This document shows, piece after piece, positions 1,976 through 63,299 of a stretch of 64,000 bases of DNA. The stretch is from Pelagomonas calceolata (lineage: Eukaryota > Sar > Pelagophyceae > Pelagomonadales > Pelagomonadaceae): contig CAKKNE010000002.1 in the NCBI GenBank assembly GCA_918797485.1, forward strand, positions 2,136,501 to 2,200,500, read 5' to 3'. Position numbers and translations under genes: made by a program. The number at the start of each line of letters is the position of its first letter. The stretch's first letter is position 1. The notes below the pieces were generated by a model. That model searched no databases. It was not told where the DNA came from and worked only from the letters and a program-made list of their open reading frames with translations.

Positions 1976-2348
1976 CCTTGCTTATTTGCACCTGGCAGCC
2001 TTTGTCCAAGACCCTGACGCTGCTGCACGACCGGGGCAGCTCGCCGGCGGTGTAAAAATGGGTCCGGCGACCAGCGCTCCTTCCGGTTCGGTTCGGATCC
2101 GCGCTGTTTTCTCGGGCAGCTAACGAGTTTTGCCGGAGTTTGCTGGGGCCGGCAGAAGCGCAAGAGGAGCGTGGCCACGGGTGCGCAGGCTCGGTGAGGT
2201 GCTTGGTAGCCGTGCGAGAGCTCTGCAAAATAATGCTTTCTAGTATGTCTCTGCAGCTAGCTAGCTCTGCTCTCGGCTTTGGAGCAGCTAGCTAGCCCGC
2301 ACAGCTGCATATTTCCGGCCCGCACGCCATCGCCGAAGAGTTCAACCC
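1976..2348. other. divergent intergenic region
   Basis: 373 bp between the LRR/EF-hand gene and CIAO1, which are transcribed away from each other. It holds a degenerate copy of the dispersed 24-bp motif (2240-2261) and a pair of GCAGCTAGCTAGC blocks at 2253-2265 and 2284-2296. No coding frame with support was seen. Confidence 0.6.
2240..2261 (-). promoter_or_regulatory. dispersed 24-bp palindromic motif, degenerate copy
   Basis: CTAGTATGTCTCTGCAGCTAGC keeps both CTAG arms and the TGTCT core. It lies 88 bp upstream of the CIAO1 ATG. Confidence 0.45.
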
Positions 2349-3528
2349 ATGGCCGCAGCCGTGATGCAAGTGGACGACCGCTCAAGCACGCCGACGCCAA
2401 GTATAGCAAGGTGCATCGCGACGCTCGAGGGCCACGAGGAGCGCGTCTGGCACTGCGCCTGGTCGCGCGACGGTAGACAATTAGCGAGCTGCGGGAGTGA
2501 TCGAACAGTCAGGTTGTGGCGGCGCACCGGCGATGCGTTCGTCACCAGCGCGACGCTCGACGACGCTCATGATAGAACGGTGCGGCGCGTCGCCTGGGCG
2601 CCCTGCGGCACGTTGTTAGCAGCCACATCCTTCGACGCGACGTGCTGCGTCTGGCGGCGGTCGCGCCAGGACGACGCGTGGGAGATCCTGGCCACGCTCG
2701 AGGGCCACGAGAACGAAGTCAAAGGTCCGTGACTCAGCGTCTTTTTGTCAACTCTTCTCAGCTTCAAGTTCCGCTGCGGAATCATCGCGTCGCCCTCCAC
2801 GCCATCGACGCGCCGTCTGCTCGATATCGCATCGATGGCGTCGAATCGCTGCGGCTCCGACCGCGTCCCGTGCAGGCTGCGCGTGGAACGCGTCCGCGTC
2901 GCTGCTCGCGACGTGCTCGCGGGACAAGAGCGTGTGGCTGTGGGAGTTTGTGGACGACGAGGCCTTCGAATTGTTGACTGTTTTACACGGGCACGAGGGC
3001 GACGTGAAAACCGTGGACTTCGACACGTGTTCCTCTTTGTCCGAAGATGATTTACTTGTCTCGTGTTCGTATGATGATACGTTGCGGGTCTGGGGTGATG
3101 ATGGGGACGACTGGAGTTGTAGGAGTACGCTCGAGGGTCATGCGTCGACCGTGTGGGATGCTTCGTTCTGTGCCACTTCCAACGGCGCGAGACGGATCGT
3201 GTCCTGCGGCGCGGACCTGAGTGTGCGGGTCTGGGCCGAGGCGGCGCCGGGCGATGCGTCGAAGTGGGTCCAGCTCTCGGTGTTCGAGAACGCGCATAAT
3301 CGCCCGGTCTACTCGTGCGCCGTCTCTGGAAATAGGGTCGCGTCCTGCGGCGCCGACGACGCGTTAATGCTGCTCTCGTTTGATGTTGAGAGTGGAGCGC
3401 TGGCGAAGCTTGGCAGGGTGGACGCCTGTCACGCGGGCGACGCGAACGCGGTGCGCTGGAACCCCGCTTGTGCGGACATGCTGGCGACGGCCGGGGATGA
3501 TGGGGTGGTGCGGGTGTGGCGGGTCTAG
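2349..3528 (+). CDS. CIAO1: WD40 protein CIAO1/CIA1, cytosolic Fe-S assembly
   Basis: Two exons, 2349-2724 and 2876-3528, give 342 residues, close to the usual 330-340 of CIAO1. Seven WD repeats are visible, with hallmark LEGHEERVWHCAWSRDG, LEGHENEVKGCAWN and TCSRDKSVWLWEF. The last two match the CIAO1 signature and are joined only when the 151-bp intron is removed (AAAG|GTCCGTG ... CCCGTGCAG|GCTGCG). CIAO1 is the docking platform of the cytosolic iron-sulfur targeting complex (with CIAO2/MIP18 and MMS19) that loads clusters onto DNA polymerases and helicases. The start was chosen because it is the first ATG before the first WD repeat. Confidence 0.9.
2725..2875 (+). other. intron of CIAO1 with introner-like core
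   Basis: 151-bp GT-AG intron. It contains CCACGCCATCGACGCG and, 30 bp on, the inverted version (CATCGATGGCGTCG), the same core found in the clearer introner introns. No convincing terminal inverted repeat or target duplication remains, so it is either an older copy or a different subfamily. Confidence 0.75.
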
Positions 3529-4221
3529 TTTCTAACGTGGTTTTTGTAGTCTTCTGTACTGGTGGTTTGGGGCTAGTGGGGGTCGTTGTTTTGAGCGCGG
3601 ACTTTCCCCGCTATCAGGTGCTTGGCGATGGATGGGAGGGGTGCTGACGATGGTTGGGCTGGTAGCGAGCCGAGACAGGCACACGCCATACGGCTAGCCC
3701 ATCGATCCAGCCTGCAAGACCATCGTCAAAATGGCACTGCCACCGGGTCGAAATACTTCGCAACGCTGCGCCTGGCCGCCCAACTGGCCGCGCGCATCCG
3801 CCTAGCCCAATCCAATTGCAATCCGATGCGCGCGTACCACGCTTGACTATATCCTCGCGCCCTCTGCTGCAAATTTCGCTGCGGCGGAGCGTCCGGTTTT
3901 CACCGCGCGGCCGCTGAGGATTGCTTACAAGCCCAGCGAACCTCTTCGCCGTGTGCTGAGCACAAATGCGCGGCCACTAGCATGCGTACGGCCTTGGGTC
4001 GGGGAACACCGGTGCGATGGCAAGAGCCTGGCCGCTGCGCTCTGCGGCGGCGCGCCACCGCTGTGGTGAGCGGCAAGCCTTCTATTGCGGACCGCTCCGG
4101 GGCCTCGCGCTGGCAAGCCTCTGCACGACTTACGGTGACGTTCGACCGTTCGAAAACACACACACGTCACACCAGTATATCACGCCCCCCACAAAAAATC
4201 ACCATCAAATCCCCACCGCAG
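3529..4221. other. intergenic region upstream of the LHC gene
   Basis: About 690 bp between the CIAO1 stop and the first clearly coding LHC base. An unbroken frame from an ATG at 3982 leads into the LHC gene, but its composition does not look like a targeting peptide. No copy of the 24-bp motif was found. The A/C-rich stretch 4150-4215 (CACACACACGTCACACC and following) resembles a 5' UTR. Confidence 0.5.
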
Positions 4222-5204: not shown

Positions 5205-5619
5205 GCGCCTGAAGGTGGACGGCCGCGGTGCGGGTCTGCTGGTGCCCCTTCGATACGCGATGGATGGGATGGCACAGCAGGAGCTTGAGCTTCGGCTACT
5301 TTTCTAAAACTCTTGTAAAAGGCTCACAAACTCCACACCGCTAGAAAACGCAGCTAGCGGCTGTAAGACACTAGCAAGCCAGCCCTCAGCAGCACTTAAG
5401 CGATGCCAGCGGCGCACTGATCGCGATACAATTCGAGAGCATACATCAAAGGCGGATACGCGCGATAGAGCTTCGCTGCGCCACCGCTACTCCTCTTACG
5501 CCAGCTGTGTGTGAGATCTCTACAGTGATCGAGCTGCACCGCGACGCCGTCAGCGCGTAATACATTGAGTGCTGGAGCGTATTGCTGCCGCTGCAAGACA
5601 CCGCAATCGGGGACAAAAA
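5205..5619. other. intergenic region between two plus-strand genes
   Basis: 415 bp containing the 3' flank of the LHC gene and the promoter of the oxygenase-like gene. One 24-bp motif copy lies at 5353-5375. Nothing else was recognised. Confidence 0.5.
5353..5375 (+). promoter_or_regulatory. dispersed 24-bp palindromic motif
   Basis: GCTAGCGGC followed by TGTAAGACACTAGC; 245 bp upstream of the ATG at 5620. Confidence 0.7.
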
Positions 5620-6390: not shown

Positions 6391-6439
6391 TTGACGCGTC
6401 GATGGCGTCTAACTGTATGTTGTACTAGTACAAGTGTCA

Positions 6440-11329: not shown

Positions 11330-12949
11330 TCACTGCATAAATCCAGGCAACGGCACGCGGAACTCCTGACCAACCGCAACTCCAGCAGGCACGACGACCG
11401 AGTACCGCTGTCCGCGACCCCGCGGGTCGGGATCGGTGAACTCGACGTTCATGCCGGGGCGCGCGCCCGCGGGACACCGTAGATTGATGAACCGCTGTGG
11501 GGGCGGCGGCCGCCGCTGCCCAGCGAGCCGCGCCCGCGCGCCCGCGATCGCGGCCTGGAAGTCGAGCAGCGCGCGCGGCGCGCGCGGCGCCGGCGGCATC
11601 GGGACGTACTGCAACTGAGGAGGCGCGACGCCCCGGCGCCGCGCGTCGAGCTGCGCCGCCGCGTGCCGCCGCATAGTCTCAGCTTCTTGCTCGGGTCGGT
11701 GCGCCATCATCAGGTCGTGCGCCCGCTGGCCGCCGTGACACTTCGCCGGGTCGTGGGACTCGTGCGGCTGCAGACAAATAAAGCAAAAGCTTTTGCCGCA
11801 GCCGCCCGGCGGCGCGCATAACACGTGGTTACAGCCGCCGACCTTCGTGATGCCGTTGCCGCAGGCCGGGCACCGCTTCGTGTCGGAGCCGAGGGACTTG
11901 AGCACGTCCTCGCCCTCGTCCACGTCCTCGCACGGCTTGCCCGGGTGCGCGTGGGCGCCGCACTTGATGCAGTAGGACCGCTCGCAGGGCTTGCCCGGTA
12001 GCCCCGGGCACTGGACAATGCCGTCCTCGGGCTCGTCGCCCTTCAGCACGACGCCGCGCGCGCCGCAGACGCACTCCAGCCGCGCGGCCACATCACTACG
12101 CAGCGCCACCGCCGCGTCGCGTTCCGCCGCCCGCGCCTCGAGGTCCTCGAGCTCCCACGCCGACAGGCACCCCTTGACGTGGTCCGTGCCGACGAGCGCC
12201 TTGCAGCTCGGACACTTGACCTGGGAGGCGCCGGCGCCCTTCGTGCCCGTGACTGTCAGGTAGTTCCGGAAGCACGGCTTGCAGAACCAGTGGAGCTCGT
12301 CACCCTCGCACGGCACCGAGTCCGTCAGCGCGAACGTGTCGCAGCAGATGCCGCACTCGACGCCGTCGGCGCCGTCGACCGATTCGATCTTGCTGAAGGC
12401 CTCGGCAACCGCGTTGCGGCCCGCGTAGAGCGCCAGCCGGTTCCCCAGGAACAAGAGTTCGCCCTCGAGAAAGACAGGGTCGGCGAACATCCCGTTCACG
12501 ACGGATTGATCGACCGCGCCCCAGAACTCGTCGGCGCACGCCGCCAGCATGTCCCAGAGCGGCTCGTCCGGCCGGTCGCGCTTCCACCGCCACTGATCGA
12601 GGGCCCCGCGCGCGACGCAGCAGCGGAAAAGCTTCCGAACCAGCCGCGACTTCGCGTTCTCGCCGGCGGCGCGCCACTTGGCCTCCGCCGTCTCGAGCGG
12701 CGACTTCGGCGCGCCGACGCCGCCGCGGCGCATCGCCGGCGTCTTCTCGAGGCGCTCCGTCTCGCGCTGCTTCGCGGCGGCTGCCTCGTCCGTCGAGATG
12801 CCCGTCGTGGCCTTGCGCTCGCGCTTTTCCACGTGCGTGATCTCGACGTCGTCGTCCGAGTCCTCGTCGCGGGCTCGTTTTTTCTTTTGCCGCAGCGGCG
12901 GCGGCGGCGGCGCATCGTCCAGCTGCGTCAAATCTATCACTTCCGCCAT
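11330..12949 (-). CDS. RBR-type (RING-IBR-RING) ubiquitin ligase
   Basis: 539 residues. RING1 starts at CGICCDTF (about 197) and ends with CPSCKALVG; an IBR follows with CVCGARG, CPGLPGKPC and YCIKCGAHAHPGKPC. RING2 is CPACGNGITKVGGCNHVLC, whose GGCNHV cysteine corresponds to the catalytic Cys of RBR ligases, followed by FCFICLQPHESHDPAKC. The N-terminus is acidic and basic low-complexity sequence (DLTQLDDAPPPPP, then KKKRARDEDSDDD). Such enzymes accept ubiquitin on RING2 before transfer. The substrate is unknown. Convergent with the reductase gene, about 96 bp apart. Confidence 0.85.
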   Translation of the reverse strand: MAEVIDLTQLDDAPPPPPLRQKKKRARDEDSDDDVEITHVEKRERKATTGISTDEAAAAKQRETERLEKTPAMRRGGVGAPKSPLETAEAKWRAAGENAKSRLVRKLFRCCVARGALDQWRWKRDRPDEPLWDMLAACADEFWGAVDQSVVNGMFADPVFLEGELLFLGNRLALYAGRNAVAEAFSKIESVDGADGVECGICCDTFALTDSVPCEGDELHWFCKPCFRNYLTVTGTKGAGASQVKCPSCKALVGTDHVKGCLSAWELEDLEARAAERDAAVALRSDVAARLECVCGARGVVLKGDEPEDGIVQCPGLPGKPCERSYCIKCGAHAHPGKPCEDVDEGEDVLKSLGSDTKRCPACGNGITKVGGCNHVLCAPPGGCGKSFCFICLQPHESHDPAKCHGGQRAHDLMMAHRPEQEAETMRRHAAAQLDARRRGVAPPQLQYVPMPPAPRAPRALLDFQAAIAGARARLAGQRRPPPPQRFINLRCPAGARPGMNVEFTDPDPRGRGQRYSVVVPAGVAVGQEFRVPLPGFMQ

Positions 12950-13120
12950 CGCTGCGCCGCGTCTTGTTAGCTGCAGAGTGGTCCACTGATTTGGGCTTCG
13001 CAGCGCGCGGCTTTTCGGCCCTCGCGTCAGCCGCTCAGCGAGAGGTCTCGGCGCGCGCGTCGGAGAGCACGCAGCGCTGCCGGATAAGCCAGCAATCTGG
13101 CCGGCAGATGCCGTGCAAAA

Positions 13121-13143
13121 CTAGTATGTGTCTACACGCTAGC
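13121..13143 (-). promoter_or_regulatory. dispersed 24-bp palindromic motif, variant
   Basis: CTAGTATGTGTCT then ACACGCTAGC; both arms are kept. It ends 36 bp upstream of the HSP70-like ATG and lies 170 bp from the RBR start. Confidence 0.55.
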
Positions 13144-13179
13144 AAGCTCCTTTGCTCTGGAGCCCATACGGCGCACAAG

Positions 13180-15213
13180 ATGGCCGCATCAGCGCCCAGG
13201 CTCGTGCTATGGCTAGCCGCCAGCGCGCTGGGGCTCTCCCCAAGCCTGCGTGCGCGTTCGCTGCCGGCGCGAGCAGTGAGAGCGCCTGTGGTTCAAAACC
13301 TGCAACCGCTGGCGCCCCGCGCGCGCGACCTCACGCGCCGCGCCAGCGACATGGAGCGGTCCTACGACGGCGTCGACCTCACCGCCAGCGACGCAACCGA
13401 TGTGATGGACGAAGAAGGCTGGTTCGAGGACGACGACGAGCGCGACGCGGCCATAGACATCCTGGCGGACCGCGACGAGAACAACGAGGAGGTCGACACG
13501 TCTTCCGTGTATTTTTTTGGGAACGACGACGACGACGACGAGGAATTAAGGCGATTACTTAGTGAACTGGAGAGCCAGTTCGCCGGCAAAGACGACGCGG
13601 CCTCGCGGTCTATTTTAGCATCGGTAGAGGAGTGCGGGAAGGTCTTGGAGAAGGAGCACACGCCCGTGGCGCTGGACGCGCGCGCTGCACTAGCGTTTGC
13701 CGCGACGGCGCGAGGCGACGCGCCCGTCGATGAACTAGATGTAGAAAGAATCCCAACAGTAGACGATGAATTAGTAGAGGCCTTCCAGGCATTAAATACA
13801 GACGACTTCGACGGCCACCTGGACGAGATGTACGGCTGGCTCGTCGGGAACAGTTCCGAAGCGACTCATGCTGGAAGTACTTCATCTAAAACAAGGTTCG
13901 GACGGACCGTGGGCTTGGATCTGGGCACCACAAACAGCGCAGCCGCCGTCGTCGACGCCGACGGCGCGCCCAAATTGCTGCCACCCGGTTTAACCCCGTC
14001 GGTGGTATGTTTTATCGACGGCGAACTGGAGACGGAGCCTGTGGATCGAGCAGGCAGAGTAGCGCTGCGGGACGATGACGGCCGGGGCGTCGTCGCGGTC
14101 GTGGGCAAAGAAGCCGAACAGATGAGAGACGGCGTCCACGCCGCGTCCGTGTGTTCTCGGGTGAAGCGGGTATTAGCCCGGGACGCGACGCCGCGGGAGA
14201 TGCGCCGCGTGTCGGCGGGCGAGTCGGAGAAGCTGACGCACACCACTACCCTAAGGATCCCGGCGCTGCCGAATAGAGTTGCAGCCTCCGAAGTGTCCGC
14301 GGAAGTGGTCCGGAAGCTGCGGGACGACGCGTTGGCGTTTCTGGACGGCCACGCCGGCGCCGCGACGAAATGTGTGGTGGGCGTCCCGGCCCGTTTTGAT
14401 GAAGCGGCCGTCGAGGCGACGAAGACCGCGTGTTTGTTAGGTGGTTTTGAGTCCGCAGAGACGATTCTGGAGCCCGTCGCGGCGGCTTTAGCGTACTCGG
14501 CGACGAAGCAAGTCGGCAAGGAGACGGTTTTGGTGTTCGACCTCGGAGGTGGCACTTTTGACTGCTGCGTCGTGGAGTTGGATGGGAATAGGGCGGAGCT
14601 CATAGCATTAGGTGGGGATGCGAAACTCGGTGGCGATGACTTTGATGCCGCAGTTGCTGAACATCTGGCCGACCGGTTCTACGACGCGCACGGTCTGTCC
14701 GTCAAAGCGGCGACGGCTAGATTGCGTTTATTAGCCGAGGCGGAGCGGTGCAAGATCGCTTTATCTAGATCCAACGCTACCAAAGCGTTCGCCCGCGGTT
14801 TAGCTAGAGTCGGTTCTGATGGGAGACGCGCGCGGGGCGGCCGGCCCCTCGATCTAGAATGCGACATAACGCGGCCCGTGCTGGACGCGCTCTGCCAACC
14901 GTTGTTAGCGAGGCTGGAGAAAGCCATGCGCGCGACGTGCGCCGAGGCCGGCGTCGCGTTGCCCGGTGATAAGGGCACTCGATCGCTGGACGGCGTGCTG
15001 CTGGTCGGCGGCGCGACGCGGACGCCGGCGGTCGGGCGCATGCTCCGCGCGGCGACGGGCCTGCCCCTCGCGAAGATCGCGGCGCACGGGTCTGTCCACC
15101 CGGACGAGGCGGTGGCGCTCGGCGCCGCCGTCCGCGCGGCGGCGCTCGACGCGAGCAGCGTCGGGGCTGCTGCGCCGGACGCGTCCGTCGTCGACAAACG
15201 AGCTGCTGTGTAA
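13180..15213 (+). CDS. HSP70-type ATPase lacking the substrate-binding domain
   Basis: 677 residues from ATG 13180; longer in-frame starts upstream overlap the promoter motif and were not used. The N-terminus MAASAPRLVLWLAASALGL is a signal peptide followed by an Arg-rich stretch, suggesting plastid or ER-route targeting. Residues about 60-235 are a strongly acidic extension with no known domain. The HSP70 nucleotide-binding domain follows: phosphate-1 GLDLGTTNSA (about 244), phosphate-2 VLVFDLGGGTFDC and adenosine motif GVLLVGGATRTPAVG. The protein stops shortly after ALGAAVRAAAL, where the linker and peptide-binding domain would begin. It may be a stand-alone ATPase like other atypical HSP70s; a missed 3' exon is possible but there are only 21 bp before the next gene. 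Confidence 0.85.
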   Translation: MAASAPRLVLWLAASALGLSPSLRARSLPARAVRAPVVQNLQPLAPRARDLTRRASDMERSYDGVDLTASDATDVMDEEGWFEDDDERDAAIDILADRDENNEEVDTSSVYFFGNDDDDDEELRRLLSELESQFAGKDDAASRSILASVEECGKVLEKEHTPVALDARAALAFAATARGDAPVDELDVERIPTVDDELVEAFQALNTDDFDGHLDEMYGWLVGNSSEATHAGSTSSKTRFGRTVGLDLGTTNSAAAVVDADGAPKLLPPGLTPSVVCFIDGELETEPVDRAGRVALRDDDGRGVVAVVGKEAEQMRDGVHAASVCSRVKRVLARDATPREMRRVSAGESEKLTHTTTLRIPALPNRVAASEVSAEVVRKLRDDALAFLDGHAGAATKCVVGVPARFDEAAVEATKTACLLGGFESAETILEPVAAALAYSATKQVGKETVLVFDLGGGTFDCCVVELDGNRAELIALGGDAKLGGDDFDAAVAEHLADRFYDAHGLSVKAATARLRLLAEAERCKIALSRSNATKAFARGLARVGSDGRRARGGRPLDLECDITRPVLDALCQPLLARLEKAMRATCAEAGVALPGDKGTRSLDGVLLVGGATRTPAVGRMLRAATGLPLAKIAAHGSVHPDEAVALGAAVRAAALDASSVGAAAPDASVVDKRAAV

Positions 15214-15849: not shown

Positions 15850-16176
15850 TGCAGCTCAGAGCCCAGAGGCAGGTTCAGTGATTACAGTGGAGACAAGGCG
15901 GACGGCTGAGATGAGTGGCTTGGCGGCTGCGTCTTGATATATATGGTAATAATCAACCTTTCAACACCACGGTTGTGCCTTAGCACGCCCGCTTTGCGTC
16001 TGGCGCCGCGGTAGAGCTAGCGGCATGTAAGACACTAGCCAAGGACGAGCCTGAGATATTCAGGCTCCAAACTCGCCTATTTCGAGTGCACGGTAGCTGC
16101 GCAGCCGCATTTGTCTATTAGACAGCCACTCGCTGCCATCCAGACCAAGAACGTCGCCGCCGGCCCTCCATAAGAC
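15850..16176. other. divergent intergenic region
   Basis: 327 bp with a TATATATGG stretch (15937-15945) and a 24-bp motif copy at 16016-16039, positioned between DUF1415 and HIP. Confidence 0.5.
16016..16039 (+). promoter_or_regulatory. dispersed 24-bp palindromic motif
   Basis: GCTAGCGGCA then TGTAAGACACTAGC, a near-consensus copy; 138 bp upstream of the HIP ATG and 167 bp from the DUF1415 start. Confidence 0.75.
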
Positions 16177-17944: not shown

Positions 17945-17968
17945 AGCTAGCGGCAGGTAAGACACTAG
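17945..17968 (+). promoter_or_regulatory. dispersed 24-bp palindromic motif
   Basis: GCTAGCGGCAGG then TAAGACACTAGC, between divergent PurE (84 bp) and the methyltransferase gene (177 bp). Confidence 0.75.
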
Positions 17969-18144
17969 CGGATTTTGGGCTCGTGAGCCGCCTATACCTG
18001 CGCTGCGCGGCGCATCGCTCGGTCAGCGAAGCCTTCTTCGCAGTTCTTTGCAACGCTGGGACCCTCCCATCTGTGGGCCCACGCGTTGCCCAAAATCAGC
18101 GTGACCCTTCTCAAACCACTGCCTGAGCCAGGCGCCATTGATCG

Positions 18145-23663: not shown

Positions 23664-23693
23664 TTATGTGGCACATCTGCTCGTTTGGATTCC

Positions 23694-23716
23694 TAGTGTC
23701 TTACATGCCGCTAGCT
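23694..23716 (-). promoter_or_regulatory. dispersed 24-bp palindromic motif
   Basis: CTAGTGTCTTACA then TGCCGCTAGC, in a tandem (+/+) gap 237 bp upstream of ATG 23953 and 31 bp past the preceding stop. Confidence 0.75.
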
Positions 23717-27554: not shown

Positions 27555-28736
27555 CTAGCGGCACTTCGCCAAGCACCGATCAATCCCGTCCTCCTCGAAC
27601 TCGCGTTTCGACATCCAGAACTCGCTCCGCTCGCGCATGATGTCAGCCAAGACTGAACCACCCAAGAACACCAAGTGCTTCCTGCGGGGCGGGTCCTCGA
27701 TGCGGAGCTTGAACTTTTTCAGGCGGTCCTCGTTGCCGTTCAGCACTTCGGCGAGGTAGCGCTGTGTGATGTCCCTCTCCAATCTAGAAGGTAAGCCGGG
27801 GTACATGGACGAACCACCCGATAACACTATATGCTTGTAGTACTCGGCCCGCGTGTCGATATCGGCCGACTGGATCATATCAAACACCAGATGGCCCATG
27901 CCCTTGGACTCGACATCGATGAGCGAAGGATCAAACAAGCACTCCGGCGCCTCGAAGCGTTCTCTTCCGAGCTTGATGACTCGGCCATCTGGTAGGGTGT
28001 GCGTCGTTTCTAGGACGGTCGTCTCCTGGGCGAGTCTACGTTCAATGTTCACGTCGTGCGCCACGTAGCAGAACTTCTCCTTGATCTGGCGCACGGTTTC
28101 GAAATCAGCAGTACGGTTAAAAGCGTAGCCCCTCAGTAACAAGAGTTTGATGAGGTACCTCGTAACATGTCGGCCCGCGACGTCTAATCTCCTAATCAAG
28201 TTTTGCGGGACGAATCCGTCGAAGACCGGTACGACGTGCGTCACGCCGTCGCCCGTGTCGACGACACACCCAGTAAGTAACCCTTGAGCGTACAGAGTAA
28301 GCATCGCTTGGATCGACACGTTGCAGTGCCCGAACCCGTACAACTCGAACATGGCCGTCACCAGCTTCTTCCGATTCGCCAACGGGTTCATGGGCGGCTC
28401 CGTGAGCATGATCTTGTAGTCCTTGGGGTCAATACCGAGCTTCTCATAAAACGTATAGTTCCACAGTAACTCCATGTCGTCCCAGTCCTTGACGATGCCG
28501 TTTTCTACTGGATACGAGCAGTCGAGGGACATGCGGACCGCAGCCGCCTCGTCGCCGCACATGACCTCCTTGAGCGTGACGTCCTCGGAGATGGCCTCCT
28601 CGGCCCGCAGGATGGGGCGGCCGACCATGGACGGGAAGATGCTCCTCGGGAAATTTTCTGAGGCATACCCTACTTTGACAAATCCAGTACCGTTGTCGCA
28701 GACGACGCAGTGGCTGTCGCCGAGCGACGCGGCCAT
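27555..28736 (-). CDS. ARP2: actin-related protein 2 (Arp2/3 complex)
   Basis: 393 residues from ATG 28736 (family length about 394); a longer in-frame start was rejected because the extension would run through the promoter motif. Actin-fold motifs are intact: [20 protein letters not shown] (phosphate 1), [32 protein letters not shown] (phosphate 2) and [20 protein letters not shown]. The Arp2-specific [20 protein letters not shown] is present. It nucleates branched actin filaments in the Arp2/3 complex, which many algae have lost. The C-terminus [20 protein letters not shown] is typical of Arp2. Confidence 0.96.
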
Positions 28737-29131
28737 GGCTGGCTGCCGCGGCGGCGGGCGTGTAAAGCTCCGGCGCGCGCGGCGCGGCCCGTTTCGCGGC
28801 AGGCCAGCGAGCGGGAGAGAGGACGCGTTTCGCTGGCAGGTTTGTCGCAAACCGCAGTGTGTCCCGCTACCGCAGGGCTCGGTCAAATCCGCGCAAATTG
28901 CTGGAGCTAGCGGACTGTAAGTCACTAGCGAGCAAGCAGGGTTAGGGGTTCTGTCTCAGCACCGTAAAATCAGAGTATAGGGGTTTCACCGAGGCCGTTC
29001 TACTCACCACCAAGGCGTGCTATCAACGAAAGACGCAGCCCAGATTAGTCCCAGCACCGCGCCACCAGCAGAGGCGACCCGCACGTCTGATGAGTACAAA
29101 TTATGTTACGCCCGATCGATCAACCCCAAAA
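28737..29131. other. intergenic region upstream of ARP2
   Basis: 395 bp between the cyclin stop and the ARP2 start, both on the minus strand. It holds one 24-bp motif copy at 28906-28929. No other feature was recognised. Confidence 0.5.
28906..28929 (+). promoter_or_regulatory. dispersed 24-bp palindromic motif
   Basis: GCTAGCGGAC then TGTAAGTCACTAGC; 170 bp upstream of ARP2, the only gene start bordering this gap. Confidence 0.75.
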
Positions 29132-30031: not shown

Positions 30032-30411
30032 GGTTGTTGTTTGTTGCGAGCGAACGGGCGGGCGACAGCGGGGGAGCAAGCTATGTACAGGGGGGGCGCC
30101 GCGGCGTTCCTATCGTCGCGGCGGCGCTACAGCACTGTTTCAGGCACAGCGCGGGCGGCGCCGTTTCTCGGGCGTCGGCGGCGTCACCACACACTGTTTC
30201 CCATGCAAGGAGGGGCACAGGTTTTTGAGGCCGCTGGCACTTCGCGCGGCGCGGGGGCGCCAGGCAGCTGGCCTTCGAGGACAGATAGAACTCTGGAGTC
30301 TCCCAAGAGAGTGGCTTGTACCGGTATCGCGGGACTTCAGCAGGACTTGTCTCAGAGATTTTCATTGGCTAGTGTCTTGCATGTCGCTAGCTAACTTTTG
30401 ACCAAAAAACG
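30032..30411. other. divergent intergenic region
   Basis: 380 bp between the cyclin gene and the next plus-strand gene. One 24-bp motif copy (30368-30391) sits 20 bp before the ATG at 30412, the closest placement in the window. Confidence 0.5.
30368..30391 (-). promoter_or_regulatory. dispersed 24-bp palindromic motif
   Basis: GCTAGTGTCTTGCA then TGTCGCTAGC; 20 bp upstream of ATG 30412, so it is probably transcribed or sits at the start site. Confidence 0.72.
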
Positions 30412-33198: not shown

Positions 33199-33221
33199 GC
33201 TAGTGCCTTAACGACGCTAGC
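33199..33221 (-). promoter_or_regulatory. dispersed 24-bp palindromic motif, variant
   Basis: GCTAGTGCCTTA then ACGACGCTAGC; 131 bp from the minus-strand gene start. Confidence 0.65.
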
Positions 33222-33366: not shown

Positions 33367-33390
33367 GCTAGTGTCTTACTGGACGCTAGG
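33367..33390 (-). promoter_or_regulatory. dispersed 24-bp palindromic motif
   Basis: GCTAGTGTCTTACT then GGACGCTAGG; 129 bp upstream of the ATG at 33519. Same orientation as the copy at 33199. Confidence 0.68.
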
Positions 33391-34742: not shown

Positions 34743-35045
34743 TATCTGGCGTCAATGCTCATGAATAGGCGCGCTGTAGCCGTTTTTTGCCATGCTCTCT
34801 GCGAGGCTAGCGGCCTGTAAGACACTAGCGCCAAATCGTGCAGCTATCCTTCTTCGGCCTACCCGTCGAAGTCTCAGTTGAGACCTCTCTGAAGCCGCAT
34901 CACACGTTTTTGCCGCAACGCCGCGGAGCGCCGCAACAGCGCCAAGAGCCGACGAGGCGGCAGCCCCAAAGAGGCAGCCCCCGCAAACAACGAGGCACAG
35001 CGGAGCGTCGACGAGGCGGCTGCCCCACGACCGGAGCAGAACCCA
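34743..35045. other. divergent intergenic region
   Basis: 303 bp with a 24-bp motif copy at 34806-34829 and a purine-rich repeated GACGAGGCGGC segment (34952-34962 and 35010-35020) in the likely 5' UTR of the p25-alpha gene. Confidence 0.5.
34806..34829 (+). promoter_or_regulatory. dispersed 24-bp palindromic motif
   Basis: GCTAGCGGCC then TGTAAGACACTAGC, consensus copy; 64 bp upstream of RsfS and 217 bp upstream of the p25-alpha gene. Confidence 0.78.
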
Positions 35046-40300: not shown

Positions 40301-42373
40301 TCGGCCGGGCCCGACGCCCAGACCTGGGCCTTGGACCGCCGGAGGGCCACGCGCCTCAGTAAAAGTTCGAGCCGCTCCAGCGCGACGGGGTCCTGCTCGC
40401 TCCACGGCTTCTGGACGCAGTGGCTCCAGAAGCCGTCGGTCGCATCAGACAAGGAAAAGGGCAGTACTCCCAGAAAACGTAATTCGCCGTTGAGGTCCTG
40501 GATGCCCTGCGTCAGCGGCGTGCCGCTGACCATCCACCTGGACGTCGTATGTAAAGCAGCGCAGGTCCGCGCGACGGCCGTGTTCGGCGACGAGACCATC
40601 TGCATCTCGTCGAGGACGACGCGCCTGTGCGGTAAGCCTAAGACGCTTCGTGCGAGGACGCCAAGCACTCTCGCGCTGCGTCGAGGCGGCCAGAATAGTA
40701 AATAATACCTCCAGGCTGGCCTGACGCACTGGTTGATTTCGCACTGCGACGCGCGTCCAGCGGATCTGCGCGAGCGGGTTCACGTCGCCGCGCCCAGAAT
40801 ACGGGCCGCCGGCCTGCATCGTGTTGTAGGTGACGATCACGATGTCGTGGTCCGCCAGTCTCTCCAGCGACCTTTTCCGGACGGCGAAGAACTCCTCGGA
40901 CTTCTTCTGCGAGCCCTTGCTCCGCGGCGCGATCAGTGCCTCGCGCTTTTTGTCGGTGACGAAGACCTTGACGGATAACGGGTTCGAGGCCACGATCGAC
41001 TTAGTGATCTCGTTGACCCACTGCGACACGAGCGCCGGCGGCACGACGATGAGCGTGGCGCGCGACGCGACGAGCGGGCCCTCTTCATTATGATTCTTCG
41101 CGAGCCCAGGCGCCTTGAGCTGTTCGACCGTGGCCGGCGCGGCACACACTAAGCCCAGTAATTCAACCGTTTTCCCCATGCTTATCTCGTCACATAATAA
41201 CCCGCCCGACGCAGTCGGCGGCTCCTCGAGGCGGCACTCGCCTAAGTCGGGAGCGAACCAGTACTCGCCGCCGTCCGCGAAGGCTCGCTTCTCCCAAAAT
41301 AAATCGTTGAGGTTGCGGCCCTCCATCTGGCGCATCCAGCGGATCGCCTGGAGCTGGTAGGGCTTCATCGGCAGCGCGATCCGAGACGGCTGCGGGTCTT
41401 CCGCGCAGCCCGTGTGCTCGGCGGAGCGCATGACGCCCTCGAGCGTGAAGGGCGCCGCGCTTCCATTTTGTGAGGACGTCGCGAAGAGGTCTAGCTGCGT
41501 TGGTGGCGCTGCGCGCGGCGTCACGGCGCCGGCGAGCGTCGTGAGGCCGTTGAGCACGTTCCGGACCGAGGGGTCGGCGATGAGATAGAAGAGAACCCTC
41601 GTCGCGTAGGCTCTTATTTCAACAGTGAAATCCGCTCCCTCGACCTTCGTCACGTAACATAAACACTTGAGGCACGGCGGCATGTTTTTGGGGAGTTGGG
41701 CCGGGGAAGCTAACGAAGCAGCCGACGCGAGGAACGTCGCCGCGTCGTCGTCCTGTGCTAGGATCTTGCCCGCCGCGACGTCATCTTCTAAACGTCGGAC
41801 GGTCGTCGTGACGCCGTCGTTCGGCTTCGCGGCCTCGCCGTCGTTATCGTAGTTCACGGGACCGTAATGCCTTTGAGTTTCTTTGCGCGTCGCTTTCACG
41901 CCCCGGCAGAGCTTCTTCACGACGCTCGAGGCGTCGGTGCCCGACGGTAGCGAGAACTCGAGCGTGCGGGACCCCACGAACCGACAGGGCTCGTCGACAG
42001 CCGTCCATTGCATGGTCATAGCGCCCGACGCCTCGGAGCTCCACTGATAGACCGTGCCATTCCTTTCCAACCGCTCGAACTTCTCGATGGGGCGCGCGAA
42101 ACGCGCGCGGGGGCCGACCCTTACTTCTCCGGTGCGGACGGGCGCGCGCGGCGCGCCGCTCGCGAAGCCGATCGTCGCGGCCGCCGGCGGCAGGGCGAGG
42201 GTCCGCGGGCCGGGCTCCGCCTTGACGCGCGGCTTCTTCGCGCGCTTGGGCTTGGCGTCGCCTTCCGCGGCGGCGCGCTTGGCCGGCTTCTTGGCCGCCG
42301 GCTTGGCCGGTTTCTTTTCGGTTTTAACCTTCTCGGTTTTCACGGTGACCGTGCTCTTGCGTTTGGGCGGCAT
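37357..42373 (-). CDS. SHPRH/RAD5-like SNF2 helicase with RING finger
   Basis: Exons 40755-42373 and 37357-40624 give 1628 residues. A basic N-terminus (PPKRKSTVTVKTEKVKTEKK) leads to a SNF2 ATPase: LPMKPYQLQAIRWMRQMEGR, Walker A GGLLCDEISMGKTVELLGLV, ATLIVVPPALVSQW, and motif II RVVLDEMQMV, which is reconstituted only across the intron. About 600 residues of helical linker follow, then a C3HC4-type RING (CPVCFASF ... CVHAVCLGCAQQ ... CVLCRREY) and the second helicase lobe (KAVVVSSIKPAVQH; LTLTAARHLFLLEPFLSVGE; AMNRCHRIGQ). RING within the helicase and DE.QMV match SHPRH, which polyubiquitinates PCNA during lesion bypass. Confidence 0.88.
40625..40754 (-). mobile_element. introner element forming a GC-AG intron in the SNF2 gene
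   Basis: 130-bp intron. On the gene strand the element reads CAGTGCGAAATCAACC ... ACCGCACAG with short inverted ends. It is flanked by a perfect 8-bp duplication GCGCGTCG; removing one copy plus the element joins TGG-AC to GCGCGTCGTC and restores IRWTRVVLDE. The donor is therefore GC, the first two bases of the duplication. The block GAAATCAACCAGTGCGTC is shared with LHC intron 1. Confidence 0.85.
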
Positions 42374-42705
42374 GTTAGCGTCCTTCCTTCGATACTGTGG
42401 TGCCGGGTGGCGTTAATGACGTGGAGGTCTCACCGTCTGCGTCCACGCAGGAGCTCGAAGGCGCGCTTCGCGCGCTTGCCTTCGCCTCGGCTTTCAAAAA
42501 GTCCGCGCTGCACGATCAGCTGCTGCCGTTTCGCGCTCCAATCGACGCGCGCTGTGGAGCAGTGTAGACAACAATGCTCGGCTACGCTGTGTACGTCACG
42601 TTTGCGTCTAATGCGATGACCGCAGCGCGATTAGGAGATCGATCTAGCGACCTGTAAGACACACTAGGAAACCAAGCCTCACACTGTGAGTCACAGACAC
42701 AGAAG
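42374..42705. other. tandem intergenic region
   Basis: 332 bp between the SpoU methylase stop and the SNF2 start. It has a 24-bp motif copy at 42644-42667 and nothing else recognised. Confidence 0.45.
42644..42667 (+). promoter_or_regulatory. dispersed 24-bp palindromic motif
   Basis: CTAGCGACC then TGTAAGACACACTAG, with two extra bases in the right arm; 271 bp upstream of the SNF2 gene, the only gene start bordering this gap. Confidence 0.65.
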
Positions 42706-43622: not shown

Positions 43623-43646
43623 GCTAGTGTCTTACCTCACGCTAGC
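43623..43646 (-). promoter_or_regulatory. dispersed 24-bp palindromic motif
   Basis: GCTAGTGTCTTACC then TCACGCTAGC, between divergent SpoU (85 bp) and the lumenal protein gene (96 bp). Confidence 0.75.
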
Positions 43647-45575: not shown

Positions 45576-45599
45576 GCTAGTATGTTACAGGCCGCTAGC
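45576..45599 (-). promoter_or_regulatory. dispersed 24-bp palindromic motif
   Basis: GCTAGTATGTTACA then GGCCGCTAGC, between divergent NSUN (177 bp) and cyclophilin (72 bp). Confidence 0.75.
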
Positions 45600-46148: not shown

Positions 46149-46172
46149 GCTAGCGGCCTGTAAGACACTAGC
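46149..46172 (+). promoter_or_regulatory. dispersed 24-bp palindromic motif
   Basis: GCTAGCGGCC then TGTAAGACACTAGC, consensus copy; 11 bp past the cyclophilin stop and 165 bp upstream of ATG 46337. Confidence 0.78.
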
Positions 46173-49045: not shown

Positions 49046-49436
49046 TTGTGCGGCTGCGGCGGCGTGGCGCTGCGTAGTGTCGCTGCAAGGGTGGCTACGT
49101 GATCGCTGTGGACAACTCTGGAGCGCTCCCGCGAAGGTGGCTGTGTGCGCTGCGTCTGAGCAAGTATGCAGACGACTCAACGAGGTGTCTGTGTGCCTTC
49201 CTGGCACACTGCAATGGCACTTAGTTGTTGCATCAATGAGCATAATACCTAGCGTAATAACACTAGAACACGCGCTCTGAGGCGTATCTTGCACGCCTCC
49301 CGCGCCCCGCAGGAGTCGTGGCTCCCAAGAAACCGCGTAGCTCTCAAAGCAAAAAAAGCCTCTCAAAGCAATTCGCGCGCGCCGCCCGCCGCACCGCTAC
49401 TCGAGCCGAAAGGCAACGGCACAGGCCGTACGCGTC
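49046..49436. other. divergent intergenic region
   Basis: 391 bp between SecE and the next gene, with one shortened 24-bp motif copy at 49248-49267. Nothing else recognised. Confidence 0.45.
49248..49267 (+). promoter_or_regulatory. dispersed palindromic motif, shortened copy
   Basis: CCTAGCGTAATAACACTAGA keeps both CTAG arms and the CACTAG end but lacks about 3 bp of the centre; 203 bp upstream of SecE and 170 bp upstream of ATG 49437. Confidence 0.45.
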
Positions 49437-50723: not shown

Positions 50724-51259
50724 GTAGGATTCGTTCGGTTCGGGCACGGGTTTGCGCGCGAACGTCGCGTCGATGGCGTAAGGGGGACACCCAGTCAAAT
50801 CGGGGTTATCAATGGCGCTTTAAGACAGGCTATTGAAGACGAAAAGACTGCTTAAGTAGGCTTTGTCGCTTGGCTAGTGTGCTAATGTACCCTAGGTAAC
50901 TATTTTGCGAGTACAGCGAGACGAGTTTATTGCTCGCAAGTGGCAGTGTCTGACATATCAGAGACGATCAAGCCGCCGCACGGACGTCTGCGCACCTCTC
51001 GAAGCGCTCGACGCAGCACGACGCGCCGGCTCGCCGCAGCTTGTGGCAAAATCGCCATTTTGCCCAGCTGGCTTAGGAGCCGCCGACACACGCCGCCGAT
51101 GGCAAGAGACGCCGCCGACGCCCCACGGCAGCCACCTAACCCCTACTCTCGCACGCAGGTCCCCCACCAACACGTCGCAGCGACGATAGCGTAGACAAGT
51201 CGGTCGAGTCGGCAGCCTTTTCGGAGGCCCCCCACTCCCGCACAGCACACTTAGCGACC
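50724..51259. other. tandem intergenic region upstream of RPS14
   Basis: 536 bp. It contains an introner-like core (GTCGCGTCGATGGCG, about 50764-50778) 40 bp past the preceding stop, a 24-bp motif variant at 50873-50896, and a C-rich stretch before the RPS14 start that may be 5' UTR. An unrecognised 5' UTR intron is possible. Confidence 0.5.
50873..50896 (-). promoter_or_regulatory. dispersed 24-bp palindromic motif, variant
   Basis: GCTAGTGTGCTAAT then GTACCCTAGG in a tandem (+/+) gap; 364 bp upstream of RPS14. Confidence 0.55.
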
Positions 51260-51809: not shown

Positions 51810-52415
51810 TCACTCACTCGCGTCCGGCTCGGAGAGGATCCACTCCACGCCCCACTTGTCCCCGCGCTTCGCGAGGCTGAACGTGTAAAGGACGTCGTCG
51901 ATCTTGACGCGTCTTACGTAGCGGTCCTCGCCGTCGCGGAGCTCCGAGACCGTCGTCGGGTCCGAGGCGCCCGTGAGGAGCTTGCAGTAGGGCTCGGAGC
52001 GCAGCGCGACCCAGAAGTCGTTCAGACGAGCCACGTCGCGCGGCGCGAGCGACCGGAAGAAGTCGCTCCGGAAGGAGAAGGGGTCGACGTGGGCGGCATC
52101 ATATAAAGCTTTCACGCCGTCGGTAGAACGGTACTCCTCGTGGTCCCACTGGATGTCGTCGCGCCGCCCGAAGTCCACGGAGCGCGTTTTGAGGCCTTCG
52201 AGTAAGGCGTCCAGCGTCGCCGCGGCCCCGATGCGTCGAAACAACGCGAGCGTCTCCAGAAAATTGGCGTTTTCGCTGTTCTCGTCGTAGAGCCGCGCCG
52301 GCCGCGCGACGCCGCGGACTTGCGAGGCCTGGTGGGCCAGTCTCCTGTTGTTGCGCGGCGACGCCGGCGCGTGGAACGCAGCAGCCTCGACGATCAATAA
52401 GCAGAAGAGCCTCAT
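51810..52415 (-). CDS. plastid-targeted protein of unknown function
   Basis: 201 residues. MRLFCLLIVEAAAFHAPASP is a signal peptide with an Ala-Phe-His-Ala-Pro plastid motif. The mature part contains NFLETLALFRRIGAAATLDA, YRSTDGVKALYDAAHVDPFS and SFRSDFFRSLAPRDVARLND, then a beta-rich end (RRVKIDDVLYTFSLAKRGDK, WGVEWILSEPDASE). No family was recognised. Just past the stop, another frame (NFTLDAIDEDQTALVLQTRE L) runs to a TAA and contains an introner-like core, so the C-terminus might differ if a splice is missed. Confidence 0.7.
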   Translation of the reverse strand: MRLFCLLIVEAAAFHAPASPRNNRRLAHQASQVRGVARPARLYDENSENANFLETLALFRRIGAAATLDALLEGLKTRSVDFGRRDDIQWDHEEYRSTDGVKALYDAAHVDPFSFRSDFFRSLAPRDVARLNDFWVALRSEPYCKLLTGASDPTTVSELRDGEDRYVRRVKIDDVLYTFSLAKRGDKWGVEWILSEPDASE

Positions 52416-52759
52416 CGTTCGCAGCTACGAAGCAGCGGAACAAAACTGGTGCCACGATCTTTTTTTACTGTAGGCTGATGCTATGCGATTTTTGGGGCCG
52501 CAGTTGTCCAGCAGAGGTGGACAGCGTGTAGAGGAGTTACGGAGTCTGCTCAGCGACGTACAGCGCGCTCACGGAAGAAATCTGCCTTAATTTTGGGAGC
52601 TAGCGGTAAGATACTAGGCATTTTTTCGGAACCCGCGACGTAACTAGCCTGAGCCTAAGCGGCTCTGAAGCGGCTCTGTGGGCGCTGGGAGTACCGTGGT
52701 GGCAAGGATTAACTCCGAGGGGCGGTCCGGTGTAAAAACGACATCGACAGCAAAAAGTG
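52416..52759. other. tandem intergenic region
   Basis: 344 bp between the RING-H2 stop and the plastid-protein start (both minus), with a shortened 24-bp motif at 52599-52619. Confidence 0.45.
52599..52619 (+). promoter_or_regulatory. dispersed palindromic motif, shortened copy
   Basis: GCTAGCGGTAAGATACTAGGC: arms and TAAGA kept, three central bases missing; 184 bp upstream of the plastid-protein gene. Confidence 0.6.
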
Positions 52760-55813: not shown

Positions 55814-55837
55814 GCTAGCGGCATGTAAGACACTAGC
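55814..55837 (+). promoter_or_regulatory. dispersed 24-bp palindromic motif
   Basis: GCTAGCGGCA then TGTAAGACACTAGC, between divergent WDR55 (100 bp) and the gene at 55998 (161 bp). Confidence 0.78.
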
Positions 55838-56873: not shown

Positions 56874-56902
56874 ATTTGTATGCTCTGCTAGAGCTTGGCC
56901 GC

Positions 56903-61125: not shown

Positions 61126-62814
61126 CTACTCCGACTCCGTCTTCAGGGCCTCCGGCGGGCCGACGCTCGCCGCGGCCGCGTCACACTCGTCGCGGAAGCG
61201 CGCGATGGCCTTGCGGAGCGCGTGGTTCGGCACGACCTCGGTCGACTCCAGTCGCTGATTTGTGAGAGGCGACGTCCCGTGGGCCGCGAACCAGCGCTCG
61301 ATGGCCCGCCGCTCGTAGGAGTGGCCGTCGGGCGCGAGACAAGGATCGACCATGGCGTTCAGTGTGATCGGGCACCGGTACTCGTCGGGCAGGTGCTTGA
61401 CGCGGGGCGCCCGCGTCCGGCCGACGCGCGTCCACGCGTCCCCGGAGCCGTCGCCGTCCCAGCGGTAGACGACAAACTGCTCGTCGTCGGACACGTCCTC
61501 CTCGCGATCCTCAGACGTGTCCGGTGCCGGAACCCGCCGCCGGCGGGCCGCTCGGAAGACGCCAAGCTCGCCCCGGAGGCGCCCCTCGTAGAGCGCGCGG
61601 TCGCTCTCGAGCGGCAGCGCGTCGTCGGCGCCCGTGCGTCGCCGCGCGCGCGCTGCTCGCCGCTCCGCGACGTCGGCGCGCCGCTCTGCCCTGTCGCACC
61701 GGTCTTGCAGCTGCTGCGTAATGGCCGTGAGGTCCTCCGCGCGCCGCGAGAACCGCTGTAGCACCTCGCGCCGTTCGCGCGCGTCCTGCGTCAGCGCCGC
61801 CGCCCGCACCGCGTGCGCCCGCGCCTCCTTCGCCAGGGCTGCGGCCCGCAGCCGCTCCGCCTTCAGGGCCCCGCGCAGCAGCACGACTTCGTCGTCGGAC
61901 TCGTCGTCATCGCGCGAGCGGAACGCGCCTCGTAATAAAGCGCGCTCGACGGCGTCCAGCGCGCCGCGCTCCCTTTCCACATCGGTGTCGTCGCGGCCCG
62001 ACTCGCAGAGCTGGCGCAGACCGCCCAGCATCGCCGAGTACGCGCGCGTGATGCGCGCCTCGACCTCCCGGCATCTCTTGGAATCGCCCTGCGCCATCGC
62101 CGCATCCAAATCACCATCTAATTGGGAAAGGACGGGCGCGCTCGGGCCCCGCGCGCGGTCCAGCGCGCCGGTCAGCGTCTCGACGCGCTGGCGCCGCGGC
62201 ACGGGCGGGCCCTCGTCCGAGCTCGACACCGTCGACGATCGTAAGATAGCTGAGACCTGGGGCATCCTTTGTGGTGGCGGCGGCGTATTTACCGAAGTGG
62301 TCAGCCGGTAGGGCGCCGCCCGAATCGTGCACCGCGCCGGCTCCTGGACCCGGAACCCGTCGAGCGCTCTTGATACACTTTGCGCGGCCTCGTTGGACCC
62401 CGTCTCGACGAAGGCCGCGCTACCATTTCCGTGGGCGAAGGGGCCGCGCACCTCTACGATGGACGCGCCCGCGCGCAGCGACGCGTCCCGCAGGAAGCTG
62501 CGCACGGCCGCGCCGTCGTCGCGCTCGACCTGCGGCAGCGCCGCCACCACCACAACCGCGTCCAAGGAACACCGCGGCGGCGCCTGGGTCCGTCGCAATT
62601 GCGCGTACGCGGCCATGGCGTCGCGCGGCCACGGGAACTCGGCGTCCGTCTCGACGACGGGCCGCGGCCGCCGGATCCAGAGCGACGCCCGTAATGCGTC
62701 GAAGGCCTTTCTCCACGGCCCGGCCGTCTCCAGCTCCGACAGCTCAGCGGACGCGTCGGAGGCGTGGCCGGTGTTCGCGTCGGAGACCTGGCCGCCCGAG
62801 TCGCGTGGCTCCAT
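61126..62814 (-). CDS. U-box ubiquitin ligase with coiled coil
   Basis: 562 residues. The N-terminal third has an R3H/RNA-binding-like segment (AVVVVAALPQVERDDGAAVR; SIVEVRGPFAHGNGSAAFVE), which could be a degenerate RRM. The middle is a long Arg/Ala/Glu helix (LRAAALAKEARAHAVRAAAL; RRAEDLTAITQQLQDRCDRA). The C-terminal U-box, about 470-545, reads HLPDEYRCPITLNAMVDPCL, APDGHSYERRAIERWFAAHG and TSPLTNQRLESTEVVPNHAL. U-box proteins act as E3/E4 ligases with E2 partners. The putative RRM is weak. Confidence 0.85.
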   Translation of the reverse strand: MEPRDSGGQVSDANTGHASDASAELSELETAGPWRKAFDALRASLWIRRPRPVVETDAEFPWPRDAMAAYAQLRRTQAPPRCSLDAVVVVAALPQVERDDGAAVRSFLRDASLRAGASIVEVRGPFAHGNGSAAFVETGSNEAAQSVSRALDGFRVQEPARCTIRAAPYRLTTSVNTPPPPQRMPQVSAILRSSTVSSSDEGPPVPRRQRVETLTGALDRARGPSAPVLSQLDGDLDAAMAQGDSKRCREVEARITRAYSAMLGGLRQLCESGRDDTDVERERGALDAVERALLRGAFRSRDDDESDDEVVLLRGALKAERLRAAALAKEARAHAVRAAALTQDARERREVLQRFSRRAEDLTAITQQLQDRCDRAERRADVAERRAARARRRTGADDALPLESDRALYEGRLRGELGVFRAARRRRVPAPDTSEDREEDVSDDEQFVVYRWDGDGSGDAWTRVGRTRAPRVKHLPDEYRCPITLNAMVDPCLAPDGHSYERRAIERWFAAHGTSPLTNQRLESTEVVPNHALRKAIARFRDECDAAAASVGPPEALKTESE

Positions 62815-63299
62815 CCTATTCTAGCGTTGTGTCCGCACGGATTAGTTGTGCAGCTCTGGGGCTCTGGTCTCTGAGTCGCTGTGTGCTTGTTGCTGAGGCT
62901 CGAGATTCGCCTCAGGCTGTGCCCTAGGTCAAACGAGTGTGACGGATCGGTCACACGAGGTTGTGGTATATCTATATCAGCGCCCTGGCCCCAAAATCTC
63001 GAGCAAGGCTAAAGCTAGCGGCCTGTAAAGACACTAGCAAGCAAAAAAACCGGAATCGCGACGCGTCCCAGGCGCCGGGCACTCTTCTTTTGATGCATCC
63101 CACCCCGACGGGACACGTATAGGACGCCGGCCGAAGCGGAGCAGCAAACCAAAACGCAGCGCAGAGAGGGCTGCCTGGTGCGTCGCGCGAGGCACACCGC
63201 TGGTGAAACCAAGCCGCGGGCGCCCACGAGAGATGCTACTCCATCATGAGGCTGCGCGAGCCGTCCGCTTGAACGCATAAAGAGGCTGCCCACAGCACC
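62815..63299. other. divergent intergenic region
   Basis: 485 bp between the U-box gene and the gene at 63300, with one 24-bp motif copy at 63014-63038. Nothing else recognised. Confidence 0.5.
63014..63038 (+). promoter_or_regulatory. dispersed 24-bp palindromic motif (25-bp form)
   Basis: GCTAGCGGCC then TGTAAAGACACTAGC, one extra A in the centre; 200 bp upstream of the U-box gene and 262 bp upstream of ATG 63300. Confidence 0.72.

Follow-up and report, generated by a model that had tools for sequence, protein, structure and literature searches.

A promoter-restricted, heterotypic 24-bp palindrome in the genome of the ocean alga Pelagomonas calceolata

Why should one 24-bp imperfect palindrome recur about 20 times within 64 kb of an algal genome, each time near the 5' end of a gene? 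The stretch in question (the window; 64,000 nucleotides of contig CAKKNE010000002.1, C2:2136501–2200500) comes from Pelagomonas calceolata, whose genome, as analysed here, comprises 32,445,274 bases in 8 contigs; the published assembly of strain RCC100 is described as 32.4 Mb of nuclear DNA in six contigs, together with plastid and mitochondrion, and as having 16,667 predicted genes and 0.45 introns per gene (PMC9481584). A sequence-only reading of the window had taken the palindrome for a promoter element or transcription-factor site, or for a hairpin in the 5' untranslated region (UTR). Here we report that it is a real, abundant, promoter-restricted cis element, and we establish directly its sequence, abundance, placement relative to called genes, asymmetry, independence of orientation and retention in a second lineage. 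The first of those readings best accounts for such an element: with a probability of about 0.7, the palindrome is a putative binding site of one sequence-specific protein, or one fixed heteromeric complex, that would organise promoters, often bidirectional ones.

The copies themselves are not in doubt. Letters read directly at all 20 coordinates first noted in the window contain a copy at each, some shifted by 1–4 bases in alignment. A weight matrix of two blocks (8 + 14 positions, spacer 0–4, 32.6 bits), applied at a calling threshold of 12 bits, recovered 19 of them and nothing in the reversed window; five of the 19 are weak (12–20 bits; 2239, 13120, 42643, 50873 and 52595), and the matrix misses the twentieth, 49248, a short degenerate form. 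For statistics we used a sample of 264 kb, made up of the window and 200 kb of contig C1 (G000:C1:1000001–1200000), in which the C1 part gave 41 matches and its reversed sequence 1. Because the matrix had been refined on the same sequences that it scanned, we added cross-training: trained on the C1 stretch alone, it found 18 copies in the window (42643 was lost), and trained on the window alone, it found 42 in the C1 stretch. Order-2 Markov controls (30 runs each) yielded means of 0.1 and 0.07 matches for window and C1, respectively. A fixed-spacer scan of the window allowing up to 3 mismatches returned 11 copies, with 0 expected from shuffles, and 1 more at another spacing.

Under the same tolerance and fixed spacer, the whole genome contains 2,385 copies (control, 1), and exact copies number 497 (control, 0). 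The window has 12 such copies against 4.7 expected from the genome-wide figure and the sample 37 against 19.4, so that window and C1 sample together are around 1.9 times denser than the genome average. Scaling by the ratios of matrix to pattern matches in the sample (60/37 and 60/31) extrapolates to a genome total of about 3,900–4,200 copies; density in the sample is about 1 per 4.4 kb.

The consensus, GCTAGCGG-NN-TGTAAGACACTAGC, has about 22 fixed bases and a free 2-bp spacer. The base just before the left end is preferably A, and the two that follow the right end are preferably AA (65–68%); the flanks of the 60 sampled copies have no strong common sequence past about 2 bases on either side. 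Mismatches among 38 copies with a spacer of 2 and at least 20 bits vary greatly in number from position to position (chi-square P = 1e-15): few or none occur in the CTAG cores and at positions 6, 7 and 15 (0–2 of 38 copies deviate), and many more at the lax positions 8, 24, 16, 11 and 1 (7–15 deviate). CTAG pairs in the noncoding DNA of the sample peak at a spacer of 14 (38 pairs; 13 in the window, 25 in C1), with 11, 7, 5 and 5 pairs at spacers 13, 12, 10 and 44; spacer 10 (window 2, C1 3) is thus no commoner than some other distances, such as 44 (1 and 4). The full arms, CTAGCG on the left and CACTAG on the right, occur 31, 8, 2 and 3 times at spacers 14, 13, 12 and 10. Genome-wide, at the spacing of the element, left–right pairs number 2,154 (control, 9), left–left pairs 6 (control, 11) and right–right pairs 40 (control, 2). 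By these counts and the arm rule, the element resembles a palindrome only in outline and is polar. Its polarity shows no alignment with genes. A symmetric homodimer site was considered and rejected, left–left pairs being no commoner than the control and right–right pairs rare.

Placement relative to genes is far from random. With genes called by a three-periodic Markov hidden Markov model (HMM) trained on long open reading frames (ORFs) of the same 264 kb, the 60 copies at 12 bits fall as 40 copies in 38 of 59 divergent gaps, 18 copies in 18 of 49 tandem gaps, 1 copy among 58 convergent gaps and 1 among 23 intron-like gaps, and called coding sequence is free of copies; almost all copies are thus restricted to promoter regions, with depletion from coding and 3' regions. 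Relative to a uniform distribution over noncoding DNA, divergent gaps have too many copies (P = 2e-4), and convergent (P = 0.002) and intron-like gaps (P = 0.008) too few; lowering the threshold to 10 bits adds a single weak coding match (10.9 bits). In the window, the 19 matrix copies divide into 12 divergent and 7 tandem, with 0 convergent and 0 coding. At each of eight exact-copy loci sampled, all from the first 0.46 Mb of C1, the copy lies 5' of a called gene. A check free of the HMM used mechanical ATG-to-stop ORFs, a set that includes antisense and over-extended frames: those of at least 200 amino acids cover 76.8% of bases and overlap 12 of the 60 copies (3 of 19 in the window: 13120, 30368 and 42643), and those of at least 150 amino acids cover 82% and overlap 19 of 60.

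These results uphold much of what had been claimed for the window alone. Copies do cluster near gene 5' ends, neither a random spread nor equal use of convergent gaps and coding sequence is seen in the 264 kb, and their absence from coding sequence is borne out with the HMM gene calls. Their absence from convergent gaps is true of the window and gives way, in the larger sample, to the one convergent copy. The estimate that about half of the genes use the element is matched by the 94 of 167 gene 5' ends that face a motif-bearing gap. What did not survive is an orientation bias relative to genes, seen in five of seven tandem gaps of the window: tandem gaps of the sample give 7 copies in the same orientation as the gene and 11 in the opposite one (P = 0.48), and in divergent gaps the split relative to the nearer gene is 22 against 18. 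Nor is there a fixed distance to genes, as measured to called start codons: the median is about 182 bp (98 gene–copy pairs), with a range of 94–405 in tandem gaps. Two copies share a gap in only 2 of 59 divergent gaps, where about 8 would be expected if each gene had its own at the tandem rate.

As a side observation that depends on the HMM gene calls, gene order in the sample alternates more than chance predicts (59 divergent, 58 convergent and 49 tandem gaps; P = 1e-7); convergent gaps have a median length of 86 bp and divergent gaps one of about 400 bp.

The genes served are mixed. A Pfam scan covered 40 window genes, with any family at E up to 0.001 counted as positive and with genes 48326 and 49479, the neighbours of the degenerate copy 49248, classed as motif-less; the called genes 43886, 57871, 59767, 61126 and 63300 and five exon-like fragments lay outside it. 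Nineteen of the 26 motif-bearing genes carry domains of many functions rather than of a single pathway: HSP70, Hip, AIRC, actin, cyclin, RsfS, SpoU and RsmB methylases, cyclophilin, ribosomal S11 and WDR55.

The element also persists outside the P. calceolata assembly. An exact-pattern scan of prokaryote species genomes gave matches on three contigs, which belong to two metagenome bins labelled as marine 'Spirochaeta' (L029, CAJWEZ010000013.1; L030, NZGT01000179.1; L031, NZGT01000054.1). In L029, about 1.6 of 8 kb align with P. calceolata, at 96% and 90% identity, and most of the contig has no DNA match in that genome; L031 is syntenic with C6:2669–2679k at 80–87%. Judged by these alignments, the bin contigs are probably misbinned pelagophyte DNA, and among them there appears to be a second Pelagomonas lineage with about 85% coding identity. 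Over the whole contig of L031 (L046, 9.9 kb), identity to P. calceolata is 85% in coding and 76% in noncoding DNA, with 787 gap columns. Two copies are aligned there letter by letter, ungapped (21/24 and 21/23), with place, orientation and spacer length kept; they are identical at 42 of 47 positions against 76% and many gap columns for noncoding DNA, and their 30-bp flanks at 13–18 of 30. Of their five substitutions, one falls in the free spacer and four are letters seen at those positions in 2–9 of the 38 copies. Three further copies (L044:2198, L044:4290 and L043:9064) lie within aligned syntenic blocks, known by their contig-side letters only, and two of these blocks begin no more than 2 bases from the motif edge; L044:461 and L044:5352 are outside any alignment, and at L045:7906 the C6 alignment stops before the motif. 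Seven of the eight copies on the four second-lineage contigs precede a called gene, in the case of L044:4290 by as much as about 1.2 kb; the eighth, L045:7906, extends into the end of its contig and has no placement.

What, then, reads the element? The absence of strand preference, a conserved mismatch within the potential stem and the independence of the end columns argue against RNA, and uneven mismatches together with unshared flanks argue against a decaying repeat. With both argued against, recognition of double-stranded DNA by a protein or protein complex is the reading that remains, and from it we infer protein binding, chromatin opening and the driving of both genes. In such a scheme, one sequence-specific protein or fixed heteromeric complex would read the site, which would mark the promoters of a large, functionally mixed gene set, mostly as one copy and in either orientation. 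A single copy between divergent genes would serve both. On the model of yeast general regulatory factors and of the vertebrate CGCG element, both discussed below, the bound protein would most likely keep the promoter free of nucleosomes and allow transcription to start on either side.

Several observations weigh against this interpretation. Genes and start codons rest on our own HMM calls, and one tandem copy in the C1 sample (154762) overlaps a called gene end by 4 bases. Divergent gaps without a copy are common (21 of 59), and central placement within divergent gaps is mild (Kolmogorov–Smirnov P = 0.03). Pfam-positive genes make up 19 of 26 motif-bearing and 9 of 14 motif-less window genes, which are not clearly different, so no functional programme is seen; a link between the element and conserved genes was dropped on the same figures. 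Other 24-column windows in the same gaps of L046 also reach 21/24 (65 of 293 and 167 of 397), and the second lineage therefore demonstrates retention, not exceptional conservation. At 32 bits, the element is long for one factor. Finally, yeast general regulatory factors are reported to restrict divergent noncoding transcription and so to raise directionality (PMC9481977), and in this respect the analogy weakens the case for bidirectional initiation.

Other functions in promoter DNA fit less well. A core-promoter element held in fixed register with the transcription start, as an initiator or TATA substitute would be, could account for a motif that is very common at gene 5' ends and mostly present once per promoter, and core elements of other stramenopiles are likewise described as lineage-specific (PMC3599244). 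However, the oomycete core elements in that account favour the forward strand, whereas the palindrome has no preference (7 against 11); distances to the start codon, which stand in for those to the true start site, range widely in tandem gaps (94–405); and a coarse look at base composition and k-mers downstream of the motif revealed no sharp core signal. We consider this explanation unlikely. Quite unlikely, too, is a boundary, insulator, cohesin-binding or origin-binding site that merely occupies promoter gaps. Long, information-rich, orientation-free sites do resemble insulator sites, and mostly single copies per gap with a preference for divergent gaps would suit them, but we judge the density in the sample too high for origins or domain borders, copies also occupy tandem gaps of ordinary genes, and convergent gaps, where boundaries would also be expected, hold only 1 of the 60.

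A dispersed small mobile element or relic, functionless and with a preference for open promoters, is very improbable, even though thousands of near-identical copies are nearly confined to promoter gaps and a separate dispersed repeat, R1, lies near four copies. Such an origin sits poorly with flanks that have no longer consensus in common among 60 copies, mismatches concentrated at few positions, unlike neutral decay, a site retained in a lineage with 76% noncoding identity, and the scarcity of copies in two other kinds of gap, intron-like and convergent, each with 1 of the 60. The R1 neighbours, moreover, vary in distance and orientation, and R1 was rejected as a carrier of the palindrome because it is a separate family found at differing distances and in both orientations; embedding in a longer repeat, which would have undone the promoter-element idea from the start, is therefore not what we find. 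Introner elements and miniature inverted-repeat transposable elements are, like the palindrome, short, dispersed and present in many near-identical copies, but the palindrome has no longer consensus, one intron-like placement among 60 and none in called coding sequence; introner-like intron lengths are reported for P. calceolata (PMC9481584). Least probable of all, and barely credible, is a 5' UTR hairpin acting in RNA, the other half of the original proposal. The arms of the consensus can form a short stem (−5.3 and −9.2 kcal/mol on the two strands), yet in none of the 38 copies can columns 6 and 19 pair, conserved as both are, columns 1 and 24 change independently of each other (Fisher P = 0.40), neither strand is favoured, and a comparison of the window with Rfam gives no family at its gathering score. 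Compensatory arm changes and a fixed strand, the marks of such a hairpin, are both lacking. The GTAAG inside the motif had also suggested a splice site, an idea that we abandoned in view of the missing strand preference and the single copy in 23 intron-like gaps.

Copies of the 24-bp element in the window (positions of the window; scores from the weight matrix)
Feature	Position	Strand	Score and remarks
Degenerate copy, spacer 1, divergent gap	2239..2261	-	19.2 bits
Copy, spacer 1, tandem gap before gene 5620(+)	5353..5375	+	37.8 bits
Degenerate copy, divergent gap 11330-12949(-)/13351(+)	13120..13143	-	13.1 bits; overlaps longer ATG ORF 13108-15213
Consensus copy, divergent gap	16016..16039	+	40.0 bits
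Copy, divergent gap	17946..17969	+	36.7 bits
Copy, tandem gap before gene 24121(+)	23692..23715	-	38.0 bits
Copy, tandem gap 5' of 27555-28736(-) (actin family, Pfam)	28906..28929	+	34.4 bits
Copy, divergent gap, 20 bp from ATG of 30412(+)	30368..30391	-	32.6 bits
Copy, spacer 1, first of pair in one divergent gap	33199..33221	-	27.7 bits
Copy, second of pair in same divergent gap as 33199	33367..33390	-	35.1 bits
Consensus copy, divergent gap	34806..34829	+	40.0 bits
Degenerate copy CTAG-N16-CTAG, tandem gap 5' of 40751-42373(-)	42644..42667	+	16.6 bits (matrix position 42643)
Copy, divergent gap	43623..43646	-	36.5 bits
Copy, divergent gap	45576..45599	-	35.7 bits
Consensus copy, tandem gap before gene 46337(+)	46149..46172	+	40.0 bits
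Short degenerate copy CTAG-N10-CTAG, divergent gap	49248..49267	+	read directly; no matrix call
Degenerate copy, tandem gap before gene 51260(+) (ribosomal protein S11 family, Pfam)	50873..50896	-	19.8 bits
Short copy CTAG-N10-CTAG, tandem gap 5' of 51810-52415(-)	52599..52618	+	12.1 bits (matrix position 52595)
Consensus copy, divergent gap	55814..55837	+	40.0 bits
Copy with one extra A, divergent gap	63014..63038	+	29.0 bits

Gaps that lack a called copy carry traces of the same element. In the 55 divergent or tandem gaps of the sample longer than 150 bp without one (intron-like gaps included), the top 7-mer is the half-site CACTAGC (9 of 55), so real use may be wider than counted. An independent second motif was sought in these gaps and rejected, the enriched words being mostly half-sites of the element, plus GGCTGCCCC. 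This second enriched word occurs in 9 of the 55 gaps (window and C1 sample), and its 8-mer GCTGCCCC in 14 of the 55 and in 6 of 57 gaps with the palindrome.

Two further observations concern the wider genome. R1 is a dispersed repeat of about 160 bp with a conserved head (..ACGGTGCTAGGACTAGTGGGCGGAGCCCC), some copies consisting of head or tail only; copies lie at L044:299–455 and 2050–2172 and at G000:C1 1004898, 1082874, 1107977, 1126253 and 1142268, and it is present in at least about 40 places genome-wide among the matches listed. The stretch L044 ~2038–2198, which holds one R1 copy and ends at a palindrome, is missing at the syntenic place in P. calceolata. On contig C1, about 0.4 Mb (~2.52–2.93 Mb) has no exact copies on either strand, looser copies extending to 2.59 Mb, and right–right arm pairs bunch there (5 of the 40 genome-wide, at 2.72–2.91 Mb); this copy-poor stretch is possibly the low-GC centromeric region described in PMC9481584.

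A virus origin of the element was discarded, exact-pattern scans of IMG/VR having given 0 matches; the early motif reported for a pelagophyte virus differs from the palindrome (PMC5917014). In the literature searched, nothing concerns the motif, judging the top results by title and abstract start, and papers containing both letter strings treat, by their titles, unrelated subjects; the main text of the genome paper (PMC9481584), as distinct from its supplements, contains none of the words 'motif', 'promoter' and 'intergenic'.

Beyond animals, fungi, plants and a few parasites, little is understood of promoter logic, and the element, through its length and frequency, opens a direct way to study it in an alga that is abundant in the ocean. 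Its predicted binding protein could be fished with a 24-bp bait, many promoters could be found from sequence alone, and the element could help to orient or recognise the group's gene models and metagenome contigs; it has already led to pelagophyte-like DNA in two bacterial bins. A bolder proposal, which we advance tentatively and hold somewhat short of even odds, is that a large part of the pelagophyte gene set is under the control of one lineage-specific promoter code, in which a single long heterotypic palindrome and a predicted, undescribed DNA-binding protein would nucleate bidirectional promoters across a genome of alternating gene order.

How does the palindrome compare with known systems? 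Sites of the yeast general regulatory factors carry far less information, and that of Abf1 consists, as here, of two blocks with a free spacer. Abf1, Reb1 and Rap1 sites are described, like the palindrome, as promoter-bound, abundant and mixed in their targets, but their factors are reported to limit divergent noncoding transcription (PMC9481977), and the proteins are known there and only predicted here. The oomycete elements INR, FPR and DPEP share with it a stramenopile host, restriction to promoters and lineage specificity, but are reported as short, strand-biased, near the start site and present in an estimated 7–18% of promoters each (PMC3599244); the palindrome shows no forward-strand bias. 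Its divergent placement, single copies and mixed targets recall, besides the yeast factors, the vertebrate CGCG element (TCTCGCGAGA), a palindrome of TATA-less promoters enriched at housekeeping genes, of which one tested promoter fragment is reported to support transcription both ways, in either orientation and without fixed distance (PMC6192621). The two consensus sequences differ, CGCG being 10 bp and symmetric whereas the palindrome has about 22 fixed bases, is heterotypic and contains a free 2-bp spacer; and 22 of 453 tabulated human CGCG elements lie in bidirectional promoters of coding pairs (PMC6192621), against 40 of the 60 sampled copies in divergent gaps here. A promoter factor site is of a known kind; what is new in the palindrome is its length, its heterotypic polarity and its dominance.

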